This document shows positions 2,670 through 60,694 of a stretch of DNA of 64,000 nucleotides, piece after piece. This stretch comes from Aldrovandia affinis (Eukaryota; Chordata; Actinopteri; Notacanthiformes; Halosauridae), in assembly GCA_029706075.1 (NCBI GenBank), contig JAINUG010000004.1, positions 1,280,547 through 1,344,546 on the forward strand, written 5' to 3'. Positions within the stretch are counted from its first letter, which is position 1; each line of letters opens with the position of its first letter. The position numbers and the translations under genes are program-made. The notes below the pieces were generated by a model. That model saw only the letters and a program-made list of their open reading frames with translations. It had not been told where the DNA came from and made no database searches.

Positions 2670-2990
2670 GCCAACCAACCCAAGTTCACGTATGTTACTC
2701 CACTACTCACCACACTTCACTGGCTCCCTATAGCAGCACGACTCAAATTGAAATCACCGGTGCTGGCATATCAGACCACAAGGGGATCTGCTCCTTCCTA
2801 CCTCCAGACACTTATCACACCCTACACCCCAGCCAGACCCCTCCGCAAACTGGCTGTTCCGTCACTTCAGGTGCCCGGCAGCCATTCCCCGTGGTCACGC
2901 CTCTTCTCTGTCCTGACCGCCTGCTGGTAGAATGATCTTCCACACTCGGTCAGGACCACAGAGGGCCTTAGAGAGAACTTAGCTCGGAAA
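2670..2990 (+). pseudogene. L2-type LINE reverse transcriptase C-terminal fragment
   Basis: In one frame the translation contains L-H-W-L-P-I-A-A-R, then L-A-Y-Q, G-S-A-P-S-Y-L-Q, P-Y-T-P-A-R-P-L-R and, after an in-frame stop, N-D-L-P-H-S-V-R-T. This ordered set is typical of the C-terminus of ORF2 of L2/CR1-clade non-LTR retrotransposons in fish. The copy is 5' truncated, its left junction lies inside the Harbinger copy, and no 3' UTR tail is recognised. Confidence 0.75.
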
Positions 2991-3170
2991 TAGAGCAGCT
3001 CAGTTTGGGCAAGATTTAGTTTGAGGTGCTGGTTAGTCATCCGGTTTCAGCTGTCATTCAGCTGTGCCATGACGCACGATGTGGTTTGTTTTTTTGAGGG
3101 TGGAAGAGATGGAAACAGCCAAGGGTCATCAGCACAGTGATGACAAGAACTAGTCATGAAGCAAAGTAAC
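2991..3170 (+). repeat. interspersed repeat fragment, class uncertain
   Basis: The order 'ttagtttgaggtgctgg', 'tcatccggtttcagctgtca', 'gtcatcagcacagtgat' resembles a common non-coding teleost repeat, recalled from general experience and not aligned. It directly follows the L2 fragment and might be a decayed extension of it or a separate insertion. Confidence 0.3.
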
Positions 3171-4267: not shown

Positions 4268-4449
4268 TGAATCATGGATAAAGTATTTTGAGTATTTTGA
4301 AAATACAAAATTACTCCACCCTAAAGTATCTTGTTACAAATTACATTTGAATTTTTTCAGCCCTGTCAAATACAAATTACAAAATACTCAAAAGTAATTG
4401 AATTGCGTATTTCAAATACAAGTAACAGAAATACTGCCCATCTCTGTTT
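4268..4449. mobile_element. hAT-like MITE fragment
   Basis: The right end reads, on the minus strand, CAGAGATGGGCAGTATTTCT, resembling a hAT-type terminus, followed by stretches of 'caagtaattgaattgcg'-like and 'gtattttg' repeats in both orientations. The left terminus is not clear, so limits and class are tentative. Confidence 0.45.
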
Positions 4450-4496
4450 ACTGCAAATGGCAATCTAGGACATGAGCAGACAGTTTCAAGACTCGT

Positions 4497-5551: not shown

Positions 5552-6247
5552 TATAGATGTATACCTCTAAAGCCCTTTTCTGTGGATTTGTGCAGTTGTT
5601 TTTAAAGAAACAGATGGCACATTCCACTAGTCTTGGTACACAAGTTTGCACTTGGTATCACAGGCTGCTTCTGTTCAGCAAGAGGATAAAAATACAGAGA
5701 CTGCTCTGTTAGCAAGGGAAGGGATAAGGAGGGATAGACCAACACGGTCCAACATGACAAAGATTGATAGAATATTTTATGCTGTTGGAAAATACATCTG
5801 TGATTCTTTGATATGGTGAATGCTTCAGCTGAGAGTTGGAGAAATATTAGAATTTGATGTGTATGTGGTCACAACCCTTAGTACTCATCATTTCAAAAGT
5901 GGAACTGTCAGCGGAGCCTGTTTAAATATTTATTCACCTCAATTCAGGTGTGGGGAGCATGCTGGCACAAAATGGCTGCCATGCATCCCCCAGTTTCCCC
6001 CTACCGACATTCACTACAAAGTAGTACAAAATCCATGACAGGCACTAAATTAAATTAAATATATTACTATTATAGGTTTTTTATTGCTGTAGGATTATTC
6101 AATATCAACTCAATGTCAATTTCATTTCCCTACTATTTTCAAAAGCATAATTTCAGCTGAGTGAAAAAAACTTTATCAATCTGTACACTCATCAATTCTC
6201 CCTCTGTGTGATTTGAGCTTTACTGACCTTTATCACTTCACATCAGG
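5552..6247. other. unique A+T-rich sequence
   Basis: A 72-codon frame at 5820-6038 has no recognisable domain. No element end or tandem repeat was seen. Confidence 0.4.
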
Positions 6248-6640
6248 AAGGGGCCTCCATGGTGGCACAACCAGTAAAGGCACTTGCCTGGAGTGCAGAT
6301 TGCCCACTGTGGCCGGGGTTTGACTCCCCGGCTGTGCTAGCCTGGCTCTGGCCGGGAATCCCATTCAGGGGCGGCGATTGAGTGAGTGGGAGGGGGGAGG
6401 GAAGCCTCATGAGCTTGCCACATGTACAGAAAGCTTTTCTGGACATATCAGAATCAGGGTCGGTGGTTGAGCGAGTGGCATCTCGAGGGAGATGGTTCCC
6501 CTCGAGGAAGGCAGTTCAGAGTAGTGGCTGGTCCTGCAGCTGCAGGTGGCGGGCTTGTTGAAGGGGAAAAGTTTGATCAATAGAGGGTACAATTGATCAC
6601 CAAATTTGAAGAAAAACAGGGGAAAAATCTGAAACTTAAA
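6248..6640 (+). mobile_element. tRNA-related SINE, family B
   Basis: A tRNA-like head (box A-like TGGCACAACCAGT, box B-like GGTTTGACTCC) is followed by a G-rich body ('ctctggccgggaatcccatt', 'ggcggcgattgag') and a tail 'gagggtacaattgatcacca' that ends in 'ggggaaaaa'. Layout and tail match the copy at 33166-33475. A duplicated 'agggtcggtggttgagcgag' segment makes this copy longer. No target duplication was identified. Confidence 0.65.
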
Positions 6641-7475
6641 AAAAAGGAGTATATCATGAGTTTGGAATTCACTGGAGTTTAGGGATTTTTTTTTCTGAAA
6701 AAAAAAGTGTTTGAATCTTTAGGAGGCAAACTGCAGTGTTGGGGAGTTGAATCATACCTTTTTGATTCAGAAAAACTATTAATTGATGCTACAATTACAT
6801 GCTGCTGTTTCTTTCTCCTCAACAATTAGAGTGTAATTCATTATGGTATAATTTTGTGTGATTAAAATGTACATTTTTATAAATGTTAATTTACATTTTT
6901 TCTTGAAAATTAAAACAGCGACTATTATAATTAGGCTAATGAATGAAAATGTTTTCAGTTGAGTTAACAAAATGACATTATTTTATTGGGACCTAGTCCC
7001 AAATGTTTCCTTCATTTTGATCTTAAATTCAGGTACTTGGCACTTAATTGGAAATAATTAAAATAAACATTTAAAAATCTCACAAAAAGCAAAGCACAGC
7101 CAAAAAAATGTAAAAAGAAGTTTGAGAATCCACTTATAATTTCCAAATTATATATAACTCAATAATAGTTGCTGTTTAGGTTTGAAAGGCAAAATAAAAC
7201 TTAGACTTATTCAACCTTGATGAAGTTTACCCACACAAGCTGCAGGTTCATGTGGAAATTAATTAAATTAAAAGCAGCTCTCTCACAATTTAAAGTCACA
7301 TGCTTGATGAGACCACCATTAATCAGAGAACAAAGGCAGCCAGGATGCAGGTGAAATGCATACAGACACAGATCAGAGGTAAATTCTTAAAGTTCTTAAA
7401 TTATTCACACTTACCCTCCCGCATTTTAATTTCCTAATTGCCTTTAATTTAGCTTTAGAATCAAATCATGGATAT
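6641..7475. other. A+T-rich unique sequence
   Basis: No coding potential was seen; a 63-codon minus-strand frame at 6779-6970 is unrecognised. Confidence 0.4.
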
Positions 7476-7564
7476 TCCCTATCAGACTGCAAGTGCCCTA
7501 TCAGACAGACTTCAGGTTCCCTATCGGACAGACCTCAGGTGCCCTATCAGACAGACTGCAGGTG
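7476..7564. repeat. minisatellite, 23-24 bp unit, about 4 copies
   Basis: Tandem units of the type CCCTATCAGACAGACTTCAGG with one or two differences each, joined by GT or GTG. Confidence 0.85.
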
Positions 7565-10500
7565 TCTACATCTGGGGAAGGTGATCCAACATTGGCTTTT
7601 GATACATTCGATACTTTAATAAACAAGGTATATTTAGAAGATATATGAAACAATAATATAATCCACCAGCACTGCTTAGTCAATGCTTCTGTCATTCCCT
7701 GATGGGTACAAAATAAGAGCAGAGGAGCAGTTCTTACTGAGTTAATAAATAAAAATGTCCATCCACTTAGAGTGTGGTTTCCAGTTGTGCACAGAGCTCA
7801 GTTCCACAGCTCCCATTGGAGCATTCAAACAGACAACACAGCAAATAGATGCCCCCCTTCCCCCTCCTGCTCACCCCCCTCCATTTTTAATTTTAGACCG
7901 CAGAGCGACATTTTACAGAGGACTCTCAATGCCCACCTCCCCCCAGCAAAATGTTCCCACTTTGGCCTGCTGGACTCTCAGAAGCAGCTGAAATCTGTGT
8001 GGTGCATTCTGCTGTATGATAGTACAGAGGGACCTGAGGTCAGGCCGGGTAAATTAAGACAGCCTGAAAAGGTGCTTGGAACCTCCTGGCCACAGGCCAG
8101 CGAATAGCATGTCTCTGATGGTGGAAACATGTGACTGGACATGCTCGGCATAACCAGGTTGCACTAAATCATTCATAAAATTGTGATTCCTGAAGCAGAC
8201 ATTTTCTCACAGAGAATAATTGTATAATAAAAATAAAATTAAAGAAACACTTATGGAGAACACCACTAAGGTAGTTCACCCCACCCCATGCTTTGATGCA
8301 ATTGAGGTGCAAAGTTCTTCTTTGACACACCTATGAGTAAAAAAGGTGTTACTGTAGTAACACAAACTAGTATACAATGGTAAAAAGGTATAATGAAAGG
8401 GCATGAGATCAGGTGGGGCTCGCTCCAGTCAGAGTCATGGGTCAGATGGAATTGAAGAGCTGAGATGTTTAAACAGAAGGTGCCAGTCTAATGCCGGGAT
8501 CAGCCTTTTGGGCGATGAGTGCACTGGCGAATCCAGTTCTTTGGACTATGGTCTGGTCTCGCACAGTTCCGGCTCAGTGGTTCTATGGGTTCCGGTCTCA
8601 TGCAGTTCTGATCGTTCACCCCTGCCTGTATGACATCACTGATCCCACGAAGATTCAGAACCTCCAGAGCCCAAAAACTAGCTGGGTTCCATTTCTATGG
8701 TCAATGCAGACGTGTACAGGTGCGTGCGTGGGAACAATGCGGTTTCAGCACATAAGACAGGGCTTCCCACACTCTGGCCCTATGTGCGGTGATAATTACA
8801 CAAGCTGAAATAACAGTTTCCAGCACCTAGTGAGCTGTTTAGTGAGCTATAGTCCACAAAGGGGGCTATATTATGAACACCTGATTGATTGACTGATACA
8901 TTGATTGATTGACTGATTTACAGGCAAAATCACATTGGAGTTCTTCATGCTGAAATTGCAGACAGCTGGTTATGGATGCCAAACATCTGCTTTGCTGGTT
9001 AATGAAGGCTCAAAAATAGCGCATGCCAACAAGCCAAATCTGCATTCTCAGTAAATAAAATCAAAGGCAAAAATTGCGGAAGCACGTAAATGCATGTTCT
9101 GGATTGACTTCACAAATTATGAGCTGGAATGAAACCCAGCACACATAAGAGGCCCCCAGGGGCCCCCATAATTGAGTTTGGGTAGACCAATCATTTTAAG
9201 CCTGAAAGGAGGAGTTATGAGGGTTCAACCAGCCATTGGCCAATCAGGAGCTAAGTCAAGCTGATTTGTAGATGGGGCATGACACAACGGCCAGTGTTGC
9301 TAAGCGACAATATGCGTATGTTCAAGTGTGAAAATTAAAGGCGTTTCATACAGAACCAAATTAACCATATTAAAGAATCATGGTAATCATAATAATAATG
9401 TTTTTCATTGGTAAATTTGGATGAATACATAAAAAAAGGAAAATCATGCTTTGGAATTGTATACAACCATTCCCTCATTATTCACATAAAGTTTAAGATT
9501 AAAGAAAGAAAACTAAAATTGATAAGGCAGCAGACAATTTTTTCTTTGAATAAAAGAGAGTTGTTCAGTCTTTTCCTGTGCTTGAAATGAATCCCAGTAG
9601 CGGAAACAAAACTGCAATGTAAAATTCAATTCTGGAGAATATAACAAGTAGGACAATTATTAAATTTATGCTACCAATATAGAAATTATATTAATCGTCC
9701 AGCCTAAATGATATTTATTATTATCATTTATCTGAAATATGAAAAATATAGACATGTTTCAATATTCAACAATAACAACAACAATAATAATAACATTTTT
9801 TTATTATTATTATTTAAGAATTAATTTCCTTATATTTTTTGGAAGATTGTCCATAATTACTGAATTGTAATCTTCAAAAGAGAATGAAGAAGAGCACACG
9901 TAAGCAAGGAAGGTTTATAATTGGCACGTACAACAAAAACACTTACCCTGCATTTTATCTTTTGACTCAAATTCTCCAACGGTGGTTCTAATCTTTTTAT
10001 TTCCCAGAAGCTAGTACAGCCGGTTCCATTAGACACAAGAAGCCAGAAAGCATTAGACTACCTCAGACGGCGGTACTGACCCATCACGAGCCATTATGAA
10101 GGTATCTTAGGTGTGTCAGAAGGCCCTTTGGTTGCCATTTGTGGCTGTTGAAAGCAACATCAGCTTTTACACTTTATAAGAGACAATGTTTGCCAAGGTG
10201 TATTTAGTGTTTTGTGGAAATGGAGCACAGAAAATTGAGTTTAGCATTAAAAACAAAAACAAAAAAAATCAGCAGTGGTTTCAGGTAGAGCCAGCCATGG
10301 ACATCAGACCATACCAACCATTAGACATTGTGTTTCCCCAACACCCGTTCATGTCAAAGAATCAATAAAAGCCATTCACATCCCTAACCTAACAACAAAG
10401 AAAAAGTGTGACAATAGCTTTGGCACATCCTGCAACAACACAGTAATTGATTATGCCAAGGACAAGATTAATAATATGTCTAGCTATAAGCTAGACTATA

Positions 10501-58645: not shown

Positions 58646-59653
58646 AGAGGTGTCACACGCCACGTGACAATCCCTGGATGGGAACAGAGCAGTCTGGAGA
58701 TGGAGTGGAGTATGCCGGTCTACGGACCGGATTTTTATTTTTTTCTGTCTCTCCCCCAGACATGGGAGAGAGACAGTGGGAGAGCAGGTTAACATAAAAC
58801 AAATACAAACACAACCACAAACACAAAATCTTCACCCTACTCGCCGCGAAGCTTTCGGGTAAAAACAGCAAACTAAAATAACAAGCTAAAATAATCAAAA
58901 CTTACGGGACACCGCACCTCTTCATCCAGAGTTCCCCAGGAACCTCCCCAGGCACACACATATCCAGTGACCTTTCAAGTGCTTCCCAAACCCATGCACA
59001 CAGAGACACTCGAACTTTCCAGTCCGAGTTCTCTTTTACCCCAAACATACCGAGACCCTCGCTGGCAACCAGCCCCGAGACACTCTCCACTCTTTCAGTG
59101 AGAGTTGTTGGGCCGTTGTCCAGAGACACTCTCTTCCACTCACACCGAGGGCAAGAGACTCTCTTTCCCACTCACACAGGAAGCACTCTACTCAGTCACT
59201 TTCGACAAACGCACAGAAAACTCAACACACATCCAACATCAAACCATCAAACACTCCACAATACAACATGATACAACATGATACCATACGCGTGCACGCA
59301 CACACTCACGACACAGACAAAAGACAAAAGACAAACTCTCTTGATACATACACATGAATGACACGACAAGACTAACTGATTCCCCACTCGCCACACCTGC
59401 TCTTAAATAGGCTTATTTTCTGCCTGGCTCAGGTGGGACTTGTGACCCAATTCACATTCTCACACACAAACCCAATCAGTCAATTGACCCTTCGCTAAAC
59501 CACGCCCCGAAACGCAGACTGGCCAATCACAGTGCAGCATTTGACAGGCTCCGACAGAGGTCCGACAGTTTATGGCGGAATTCCGTTGACTTTGACGGAA
59601 AAGTTTGAGATTTTCTTCATTTTCGAGCTGGTTTTGTGGATTTTTTGCTAGTT

Positions 59654-59773
59654 ATGGTTAAACGTTGTGCCTGGGGCACTTGTAACAGTGACACTCGTTA
59701 CCCGGAGAGGTTGGAAGGAGATATACGTTTTTTTCCCTTTCCAAAACCTAAATCAAATTCTGAAAAGTGTTAG
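59654..59773 (+). pseudogene. THAP-domain first exon (39 codons to a stop)
   Basis: From ATG the residues run M-V-K-R-C, four residues, C-N-S-D-T-R-Y-P, and then R-F-F-P-F-P-K-P-K. This fits the N-terminus of a THAP (C2CH zinc-finger) DNA-binding domain: the first zinc pair is C5-x4-C10 and the conserved F-P-x-P follows. A stop comes right after S-E-K-C. Either a splice donor (GTGTTAG after S-E-K) was used, or the middle of the domain, including the invariant Trp, has been deleted. A later segment (59973-60060) follows a 'ttactatttcag' acceptor-like sequence and reads H-F-V-N-G-K-P, the usual end of a THAP zinc finger. Confidence 0.7.
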
Positions 59774-59972
59774 CCAGCTAAGCTAACGTGGCTACGGTCT
59801 GGATATACAGCTCCGGGTTGCAACGTTGGTAAAGTTAGACTACATGTTAGCTTTGTTATTCGTGATCCAGCCAGCTTGCTAACGTTAAGATGTTACAGTC
59901 AAGCTCTAGAAAACCAAGTGGGTAACGTTACCTTGATGTCAAAATGTAATACTATTTTTTCATTACTATTTC

Positions 59973-60060
59973 AGCACTTTGTCAATGGGAAGCCCAGTCC
60001 CGAGTACCCAAATCTTGTGGAGGACTGGGCTGACACACTGCTATTTTTTGCTTTACAGAG
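59973..60060 (+). pseudogene. THAP-domain C-terminal exon piece
   Basis: Immediately after 'ttactatttcag' the frame reads H-F-V-N-G-K-P-S-P-E-Y-P-N, the H-F motif that supplies the fourth zinc ligand and closes a THAP domain. The preceding Cys-x2 of the C-x2-H pair is not present, so it would have to come from a missing exon. It belongs with 59654-59773. Confidence 0.6.
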
Positions 60061-60254
60061 GTCCAGGGTATGGATAAGTCTGATGAGATGGGCGCAGAAA
60101 CCTGTGGAGATAACCAGAGTAATGTCGTTACAGCACACTATAGGCTACTAATGTTACGTTAGTTAGCTAATGCTAGCTAACTTACTACTGAATGTAACGT
60201 TATATAGGCCTACTGCTTTTGCTTTTTAATGATTGTAATAGTGAATAGAGACCT

Positions 60255-60540
60255 ACCCAGCTTTACAGGAACAGTGTTGCTCCTTAATGTCGTTGTCCTC
60301 TGTCTCAATCTCCAGGTGATGCGGTGGTTCACTTTTACTCTGTGATCTGTAGGCTTTCGCTTCTATCTTAATTTTTTTTATGTCATTTTGTTGCTGAGTC
60401 AGTATGATATCTTGAATATAACCTTCAAATGCATATTGTAAACCTTTCTGTCTGCTTCTATCTGAAATCGCTTTTTCTATTTTCAAAAAATTGGACAATA
60501 TTTCTCCAGGGAGTGCAGTTAGCGACAGTGGGAGCGCCAT
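60255..60540 (-). pseudogene. 5' exon of a SWIM-motif transposon ORF
   Basis: An open 95-codon stretch starts at an ATG 67 bp inside the right terminus and runs toward the THAP exons. Near its end are Y-R-S-Q-S-K-S-E-P-P-H-H-L and C-S-C-K-A-G, the pattern found before and at the first half of a SWIM-type zinc finger (C-x-C...C-x-H). It ends at a good splice donor, GG|GTAGGT, and the second half of the motif would lie in a missing exon. Similar openings occur in fish proteins carrying SWIM plus YqaJ-exonuclease domains, some transposon-borne; this relation is from memory and needs a search. Confidence 0.55.
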
Positions 60541-60694
60541 GCTGGCTCTGAAAGCTTGACGGACTTAGTAACAGTAACTAAGGGGGGCGTGGTTTAGCAA
60601 AGGGTCAATTGACTTCCACATCAATTGCCTGATTGACACCAATTAAATAATAATTAAATCAATTATGGCCGAGACCGACGCCTTCCACAAGAGG

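Follow-up and report, generated by a model that had tools for sequence, protein, structure and literature searches.

How does a transposon of little more than 1 kb come to hold the beginnings of two genes that point at each other? This question is raised by a locus in the fish Aldrovandia affinis, whose genome (assembly GCA_029706075.1) comprises 1.22 Gb. The window analysed here is a stretch of 64,000 nucleotides of contig JAINUG010000004.1 (our C1911; positions 1,280,547 to 1,344,546), and the element in question spans window positions 59486-60606. We consider it likely that this element is a non-autonomous, internally deleted derivative of an ISL2EU-type transposon, moved in trans, and that the convergent genes of its parents are interlocked. 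As a deletion product of an already described kind of animal DNA transposon, the short element is ordinary; the apparently interlocked genes of its longer relatives form an unusual layout. In one transposon family, each of the two genes may run through introns of the other.

The short element and its gene remnants

The element is 1,121 bp long, with 23-bp inverted ends and AATT at either side. An earlier note on this DNA, made from the letters alone, had described matching inverted termini about 1.1 kb apart, and a repeat search of the window confirmed them as arms of 31 nt (59478-59508 and 60584-60614) that are 97% complementary. The left terminal inverted repeat (TIR), GACCCTTCGCTAAACCACGCCCC, occupies 59486-59508 on the plus strand, and the right TIR occupies 60584-60606 on the minus strand; a scan with the 23-mer, allowing up to 3 mismatches, found only these two sites in the window, where 100 shuffles gave an expectation of 0. 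The AATT copies that flank the element lie at 59482-59485 and, as comparison of the short copies also indicates, at 60607-60610.

On the plus strand, a truncated THAP exon 1 of 39 codons (59654-59770; M-V-K-R-C to S-N-S-E-K-C) resembles the parents' exon 1 and contains M-V-K-R-C(5)-A-W-G-T-C(10) and F-F-P-F-P-K-P; the second half of this exon is deleted together with its splice donor. The start of THAP exon 2 (59975-60013; H-F-V-N-G-K-P-S-P-E-Y-P-N) stands behind a TTTCAG acceptor that is also present in the parents. The letters that the earlier note had read as the start of a THAP zinc-finger protein (F-P-F-P-K, then H-F-V-N-G-K-P) are therefore there. Its minus-strand exon with C-S-C-K-A-G is also real: exon 1 of the SWIM-like gene (60257-60540, minus strand; M-A-L-P-L-S to H-C-S-C-K-A-G) is an open frame of 95 aa from the ATG at 60540, followed by a GG|GTAGGT donor that is conserved in five long relatives (L029, L030, L031, L038, and L047). 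What had been overlooked is a partial SWIM exon 2 (60016-60108, minus strand; S-T-G-F-C-A-H-L-I-R-L-I-H and onward), 84% identical to exon 2 of L029 over 32 aligned columns, which supplies the C-x-H half of the motif discussed below. Before this exon the window copy has AT in place of the acceptor AG, and AG is found in the other seven of the eight copies compared. Set beside the parental exons, both genes point inward and are cut short, as had been proposed. The window fragments, singly or joined, gave no THAP or SWIM profile match.

Long parents and the order of their genes

A longer parent with two inward-pointing genes had been postulated, and it exists. Searching the genome with a YqaJ profile, we obtained 28 matches and examined ten 9.9-kb regions around the ten best. 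Both ends of the element were found in L029 (4,921 bp), L030 (5,181 bp), and L031 (7,025 bp). L038, whose ends are damaged, is the best match to the window element in two blocks (91.8% and 93.6%) but not in a third (82.2%). A further deletion copy, L047, keeps THAP exons 1-3, SWIM exon 1, and one good end. From the THAP end, the parents carry THAP exons 1-3, followed by an exon that encodes both HTH_Tnp_4 and DDE_Tnp_4; from the opposite end and on the opposite strand, they carry SWIM-like exons 1-3 and then a YqaJ exon. Parental THAP exons 1 and 2, when joined, match PF05485 at 1.3e-9, above the cut-off; in Pfam searches HTH_Tnp_4 was found at 5.8e-14, DDE_Tnp_4 in three pieces of L029 (2.1e-6, 1.9e-9, and 3e-11), and YqaJ (PF09588) at 1e-21 in L029. 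The profile test suggested in the earlier note was thus positive for parental THAP, DDE, and YqaJ, and its SWIM/YqaJ-like partner holds in its YqaJ part; the SWIM part stands on a motif and a score under the cut-off. The DNA-binding THAP protein of that note is predicted to be the DDE transposase itself, and the two convergent genes are indeed convergent and appear to be interlocked as well.

This gene set, a THAP-HTH-DDE transposase and a SWIM-like-YqaJ protein, is that of ISL2EU in the PHIS superfamily. A DDE transposase with HTH and THAP is present, its status as one protein resting on splice sites and phase, and the second open reading frame with a YqaJ exonuclease domain is present in L029. 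According to the main text of the 2015 paper by Han et al. (PMC4482050), ISL2EU elements have TIRs of 6-259 bp that usually start with GG, a target of A|AT|T, and an autonomous size of about 4.8 kb, and the role of the extra reading frame is stated to be open. The focal family, that is, the family of the window element and these parents, resembles that description in its AATT target, in the 4.9 kb of L029, and in its 23-bp TIRs. It differs in its ends, which start with GA or TG, and in its interlocked genes; gene order was not found in the main text of that paper. For teleost ISL2EU (PMC9179366), the main text likewise does not describe gene order or mention SWIM. No paper on interleaved or intron-threaded convergent genes in transposons was found among the main texts of the open-licence library that was searched.

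Along the THAP strand, the focal order is THAP1, THAP2, and THAP3 (forward), YqaJ (reverse), DDE (forward), and SWIM3, SWIM2, and SWIM1 (reverse). Because of this order, each gene's catalytic exon would sit in an intron of the other gene. The order was seen in all five focal places that have both YqaJ and DDE pieces, on contigs C1136, C1799 (twice), C127, and C1884 (L029/L039, L030/L041, L031/L040, L042, and L038/L043); on C127 the stretch examined ends before the SWIM exons. The focal YqaJ exon, searched against the genome, has 29 matches, which merge into 26 places; six of these are focal: the above five and one on C2052 (L047), which has no DDE match. Among the 20 non-focal places, with about 1.5 kb examined on each side, 11 had no DDE match and nine had one nearby, and all nine of these are tail-to-tail. 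The DDE match is strong in L044, L045, L048, L050, L051, L063, and L066, and weak in L049 (8.6e-4) and L058 (1.2e-7). The nine are not independent: L044 is nearly a copy of L045, and over the DDE piece used for comparison, identity among L048, L050, and L051 is 93-100%. At L032, the place of L045, THAP (5.2e-9) and DDE lie on one strand, and YqaJ and SWIM lie in a single frame of 428 aa on the other. Like the focal family, the ISL2EU-like loci L032, L033, L037, L050, and L051 of the same genome have YqaJ and DDE_Tnp_4-like proteins on opposite strands in convergent orientation; unlike it, they are tail-to-tail and not interlocked, and their YqaJ is 31-57% identical to that of the focal family. 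If the parents are expressed, the presence of such sisters in the same genome makes the effect of the interlock testable by comparison.

Predicted splicing, selection and a possible origin of the interlock

The splice signals suggest that each parental gene runs through introns of the other. In L029, L030, L031, and L038, each of the 12 boundaries that were examined has a conserved GT/AG; in L042 and L047, six boundaries were found in each, and these have it too. By eye, the phases agree on both sides of every junction: 0/0 for THAP1-THAP2, 2/2 for THAP2-THAP3, and 1/1 for THAP3-DDE on one strand, and 2/2 for SWIM1-SWIM2, 2/2 for SWIM2-SWIM3, and 0/0 for SWIM3-YqaJ on the other. When the exons of L029 are joined, the SWIM-YqaJ protein is identical to the single frame of L032 in 162 of 395 columns (41%), across the exon boundary and with gaps near it. 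Another small exon possibly lies between SWIM2 and SWIM3. For THAP and DDE there is no unbroken homologue, and one protein is predicted from the splice sites and phases.

Several points weigh against the explanation given at the outset. The ends start with GA (or with TG, if the duplication is AT) and not with the GG usual for ISL2EU, a start that we did not take as defining, since the published wording is "usually" (PMC4482050).

The SWIM profile (PF04434) scores below its curated cut-off of 19.6 bits both in L029 (13.1 bits, 0.07) and in the sister L032 (17.0 bits, 0.0043); we call the protein SWIM-like from these scores and from its C-x-C-x7-C-x-H, which we take to be the SWIM motif. The five focal places belong to one family, and therefore the rearrangement that produced the interlock counts as one event, not five. 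Moreover, splicing across antisense exons is a prediction from DNA and is unproven. This last point favours the view that a parent holds four separate genes (THAP-only, DDE-only, SWIM-only, and YqaJ-only), each with its own promoter, instead of two interlocked spliced genes, and an ATG lies eight codons downstream of the DDE exon acceptor. We regard four genes as highly improbable, because conserved splice signals stand at the start or end of every inner exon, the interlocked pairing is consistent in phase, SWIM and YqaJ share one unbroken frame in L032, and the published arrangement of ISL2EU, in the main text of PMC4482050, has THAP and DDE in a single protein.

It also weighs against interlocked working genes that every focal long copy seen is damaged: the DDE frame breaks in L029, has one stop in L030, and has a deletion and stops in L031; most of DDE is lost in L038; L042 has several gaps; and L047 has lost DDE. 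There is only a weak indication of purifying selection after the rearrangement. The non-synonymous share expected is near 0.76; relative to L029, the non-synonymous and synonymous changes are 25 and 14 in L030 (ratio to the neutral expectation, 0.57; one-sided p = 0.07), 25 and 13 in L031 (0.62; 0.11), 68 and 34 in L038 (0.64; 0.026), 11 and 8 in the C127 copy (0.44; 0.07), and 5 and 5 in L047 (0.33; 0.07); these tests share L029 as their reference and include changes made after the copies died. All five comparisons lean to constraint, one of the five is below 0.05, and none is after correction. The broken copies and this weak signal, together with the tail-to-tail relatives in the same genome, are what would be expected if the interlocked order were a scrambled and already dead lineage that was copied in trans by relatives of ordinary order and never made working proteins. 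We consider this unlikely. The order and all 12 splice signals are common to what appear to be two subfamilies (L038 versus L029-L031), and the non-synonymous share is under expectation in every comparison, although not significantly after correction. In addition, in L032-L037, three of which are tail-to-tail, neither these ends (with up to 5 mismatches allowed) nor a blastn match to the element were found.

If the parental genes are interlocked and functional, the following mechanism can be proposed. Both promoters would lie just inside the element ends; in the transposase, THAP would serve to bind the ends and the DDE domain to cut them; insertion at AATT would be by cut-and-paste, and short copies that retain the ends could be mobilised in trans. 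Splicing of the transposase pre-mRNA would have to pass over the YqaJ exon, which lies antisense to it, and splicing of the nuclease pre-mRNA over the DDE exon, again antisense. Since the catalytic exons lie in each other's introns, the two pre-mRNAs would overlap by about 1.8 kb in L029, with both catalytic exons included, and the parents, if expressed, would offer a natural example of two genes in one mobile element that are bound to overlap in antisense. That the interlock is itself functional, transcription of one gene interfering with the other (through double-stranded RNA, premature polyadenylation, or collision) such that the element limits its own activity, seems to us decidedly doubtful. 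As to its origin, a tandem duplication of the DDE-YqaJ block with complementary loss could turn the tail-to-tail order into the interlocked one. No remnants of such a duplication (DDE between THAP3 and YqaJ, or YqaJ between DDE and SWIM3) were found at E <= 1 in five intervals of three loci, and for this reason the route is still conjecture. We rejected an inversion of this block, because it would swap the strands.

Short copies, their deletions and minor features of the long ones

As judged from its sequence, the window element belongs to a large, young family of short elements in this genome. The exact 22-base end occurs 757 + 778 = 1,535 times genome-wide (reversed control, 0), and AATT stands ahead of 736 + 750 = 1,486 of these ends. 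An abundant repeat is now tied to longer source elements in the same genome. The element itself has at least 42 matches, namely 40 long ones (itself at 100%, the others at 93-98%) and two short end pieces (95% and 85%), a lower bound because 40 of 1,420 first-look candidates were scored. Of 100 listed ends, we left out four that were alone on their contigs; among the other 96, 36 neighbouring plus-minus pairs are less than 15 kb apart; 34 span 884-1,320 bp including AATT, and the other two 605 and 11,063 bp. The longest pair (G000, C1:8547059-8558121) may represent one long parent enlarged by insertions, or two distinct broken copies. Among the eight short copies that we compared (L001-L008, the window copy included), the mean difference is 2.5%, and each departs from their majority by 0.6-1.9%. 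AATT is found on both flanks in seven of the eight, L007 lacking it on one side; among the long copies, L029 has AATT on both sides and L030 and L031 on one side only. The joined flanks of 11 insertions were searched against all loci examined, and of four spanning matches, two of which were poor (75-77%) and were not used, two are paralogous empty sites with a single AATT: that of L003 in L056 (89%) and that of L029 in L031 (95%, no gaps). A 2-bp AT duplication in an A/T context and a 4-bp AATT duplication leave an identical sequence, and the variants observed, B-ATT (10) and AAT-V (6), favour neither.

The earlier note had held that the middle was lost in this copy; the interior is indeed missing relative to the parents, but it was lost as two separate deletions, not one. 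At junction 1 (59770..59771, element position 293), about 200-225 bp of the parent are gone after codon 39 of THAP exon 1; in blastn comparisons, the match jumps from 6015 to 5818 in L029 and from 3297 to 3521 in L038. At junction 2 (60010..60014, element position 537/534, exact base ambiguous), THAP exon 2 is fused to the antisense SWIM exon 2, the match jumping from 3768 to 6532 in L038 and from 5635 to 1987 in L029. The loss is 2.8 kb relative to L038, which itself lacks most of DDE, and 3.6 kb relative to L029. Microhomology at the junctions is not claimed, as the 4-base BLAST overlap at junction 2 contains a mismatch by eye. All eight copies share both junctions and differ little from one another, and because of this they probably descend from one deleted master. 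The source of the window element was likely an L038-like subfamily, since about 63 bp of the element (positions 420-482) are matched in L038 and absent from L029-L031. With the parents' ends kept, the interior gone, and many near-identical copies, the short element has the features of a non-autonomous deletion derivative.

Identity to L029 and L031 is uneven along the element (window 59478-60614): blocks 4-293 and 534 onward are 85-87% identical, and blocks 293-419 and 483-537 are 95-100% identical. This looks like a mosaic, in which the ends and 5' exons evolved or were exchanged apart from the interior.

The short element retains both 5' exons, one donor, and two acceptors (one of them mutated in the window copy), and SWIM exon 1 is uninterrupted in four of the eight copies, one of which lacks the ATG. 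It might therefore work as a regulator, with both promoter regions kept and truncated THAP or SWIM peptides repressing the full element. This strikes us as extremely improbable. Among the eight copies, changes in SWIM exon 1 are 20 non-synonymous and 10 synonymous (expected non-synonymous share, 0.76), those in the THAP piece are 9 and 3 (expected, 0.77) with two new stops, and two copies have frameshifts. The exon pieces vary more (30/2280 and 12/936 sites) than do two non-coding stretches (8/1504 and 4/888). These eight copies gave no sign that the leftover exons are maintained.

Some features of the long copies should also be mentioned. Two stretches on viral contigs fitted a pattern for relatives of the YqaJ exon, and neither was confirmed. 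L035 and L036 (C1668, 13.6 kb apart) have YqaJ, and within 9.9 kb the focal DDE queries matched nothing; they possibly represent other transposon families that use YqaJ. The YqaJ frames of L029 (4327-4992), L030, and L031 stop after the same C-G-F-C-E-V, and that of the sister L032 runs about 40 residues further; the early end is perhaps a shared truncation that predates the spread of L029-L031. L031 has about 2.2 kb more than L029 between THAP exons 2 and 3 (5700-8220), apparently a later insertion. Finally, between the end of the DDE exon and SWIM exon 3, L029 contains a stretch (2890-3100) that by eye resembles a short interspersed element (gtcgctctggataagagcgtctgctaaatg), and a similar stretch lies in L038 near 4270-4480.
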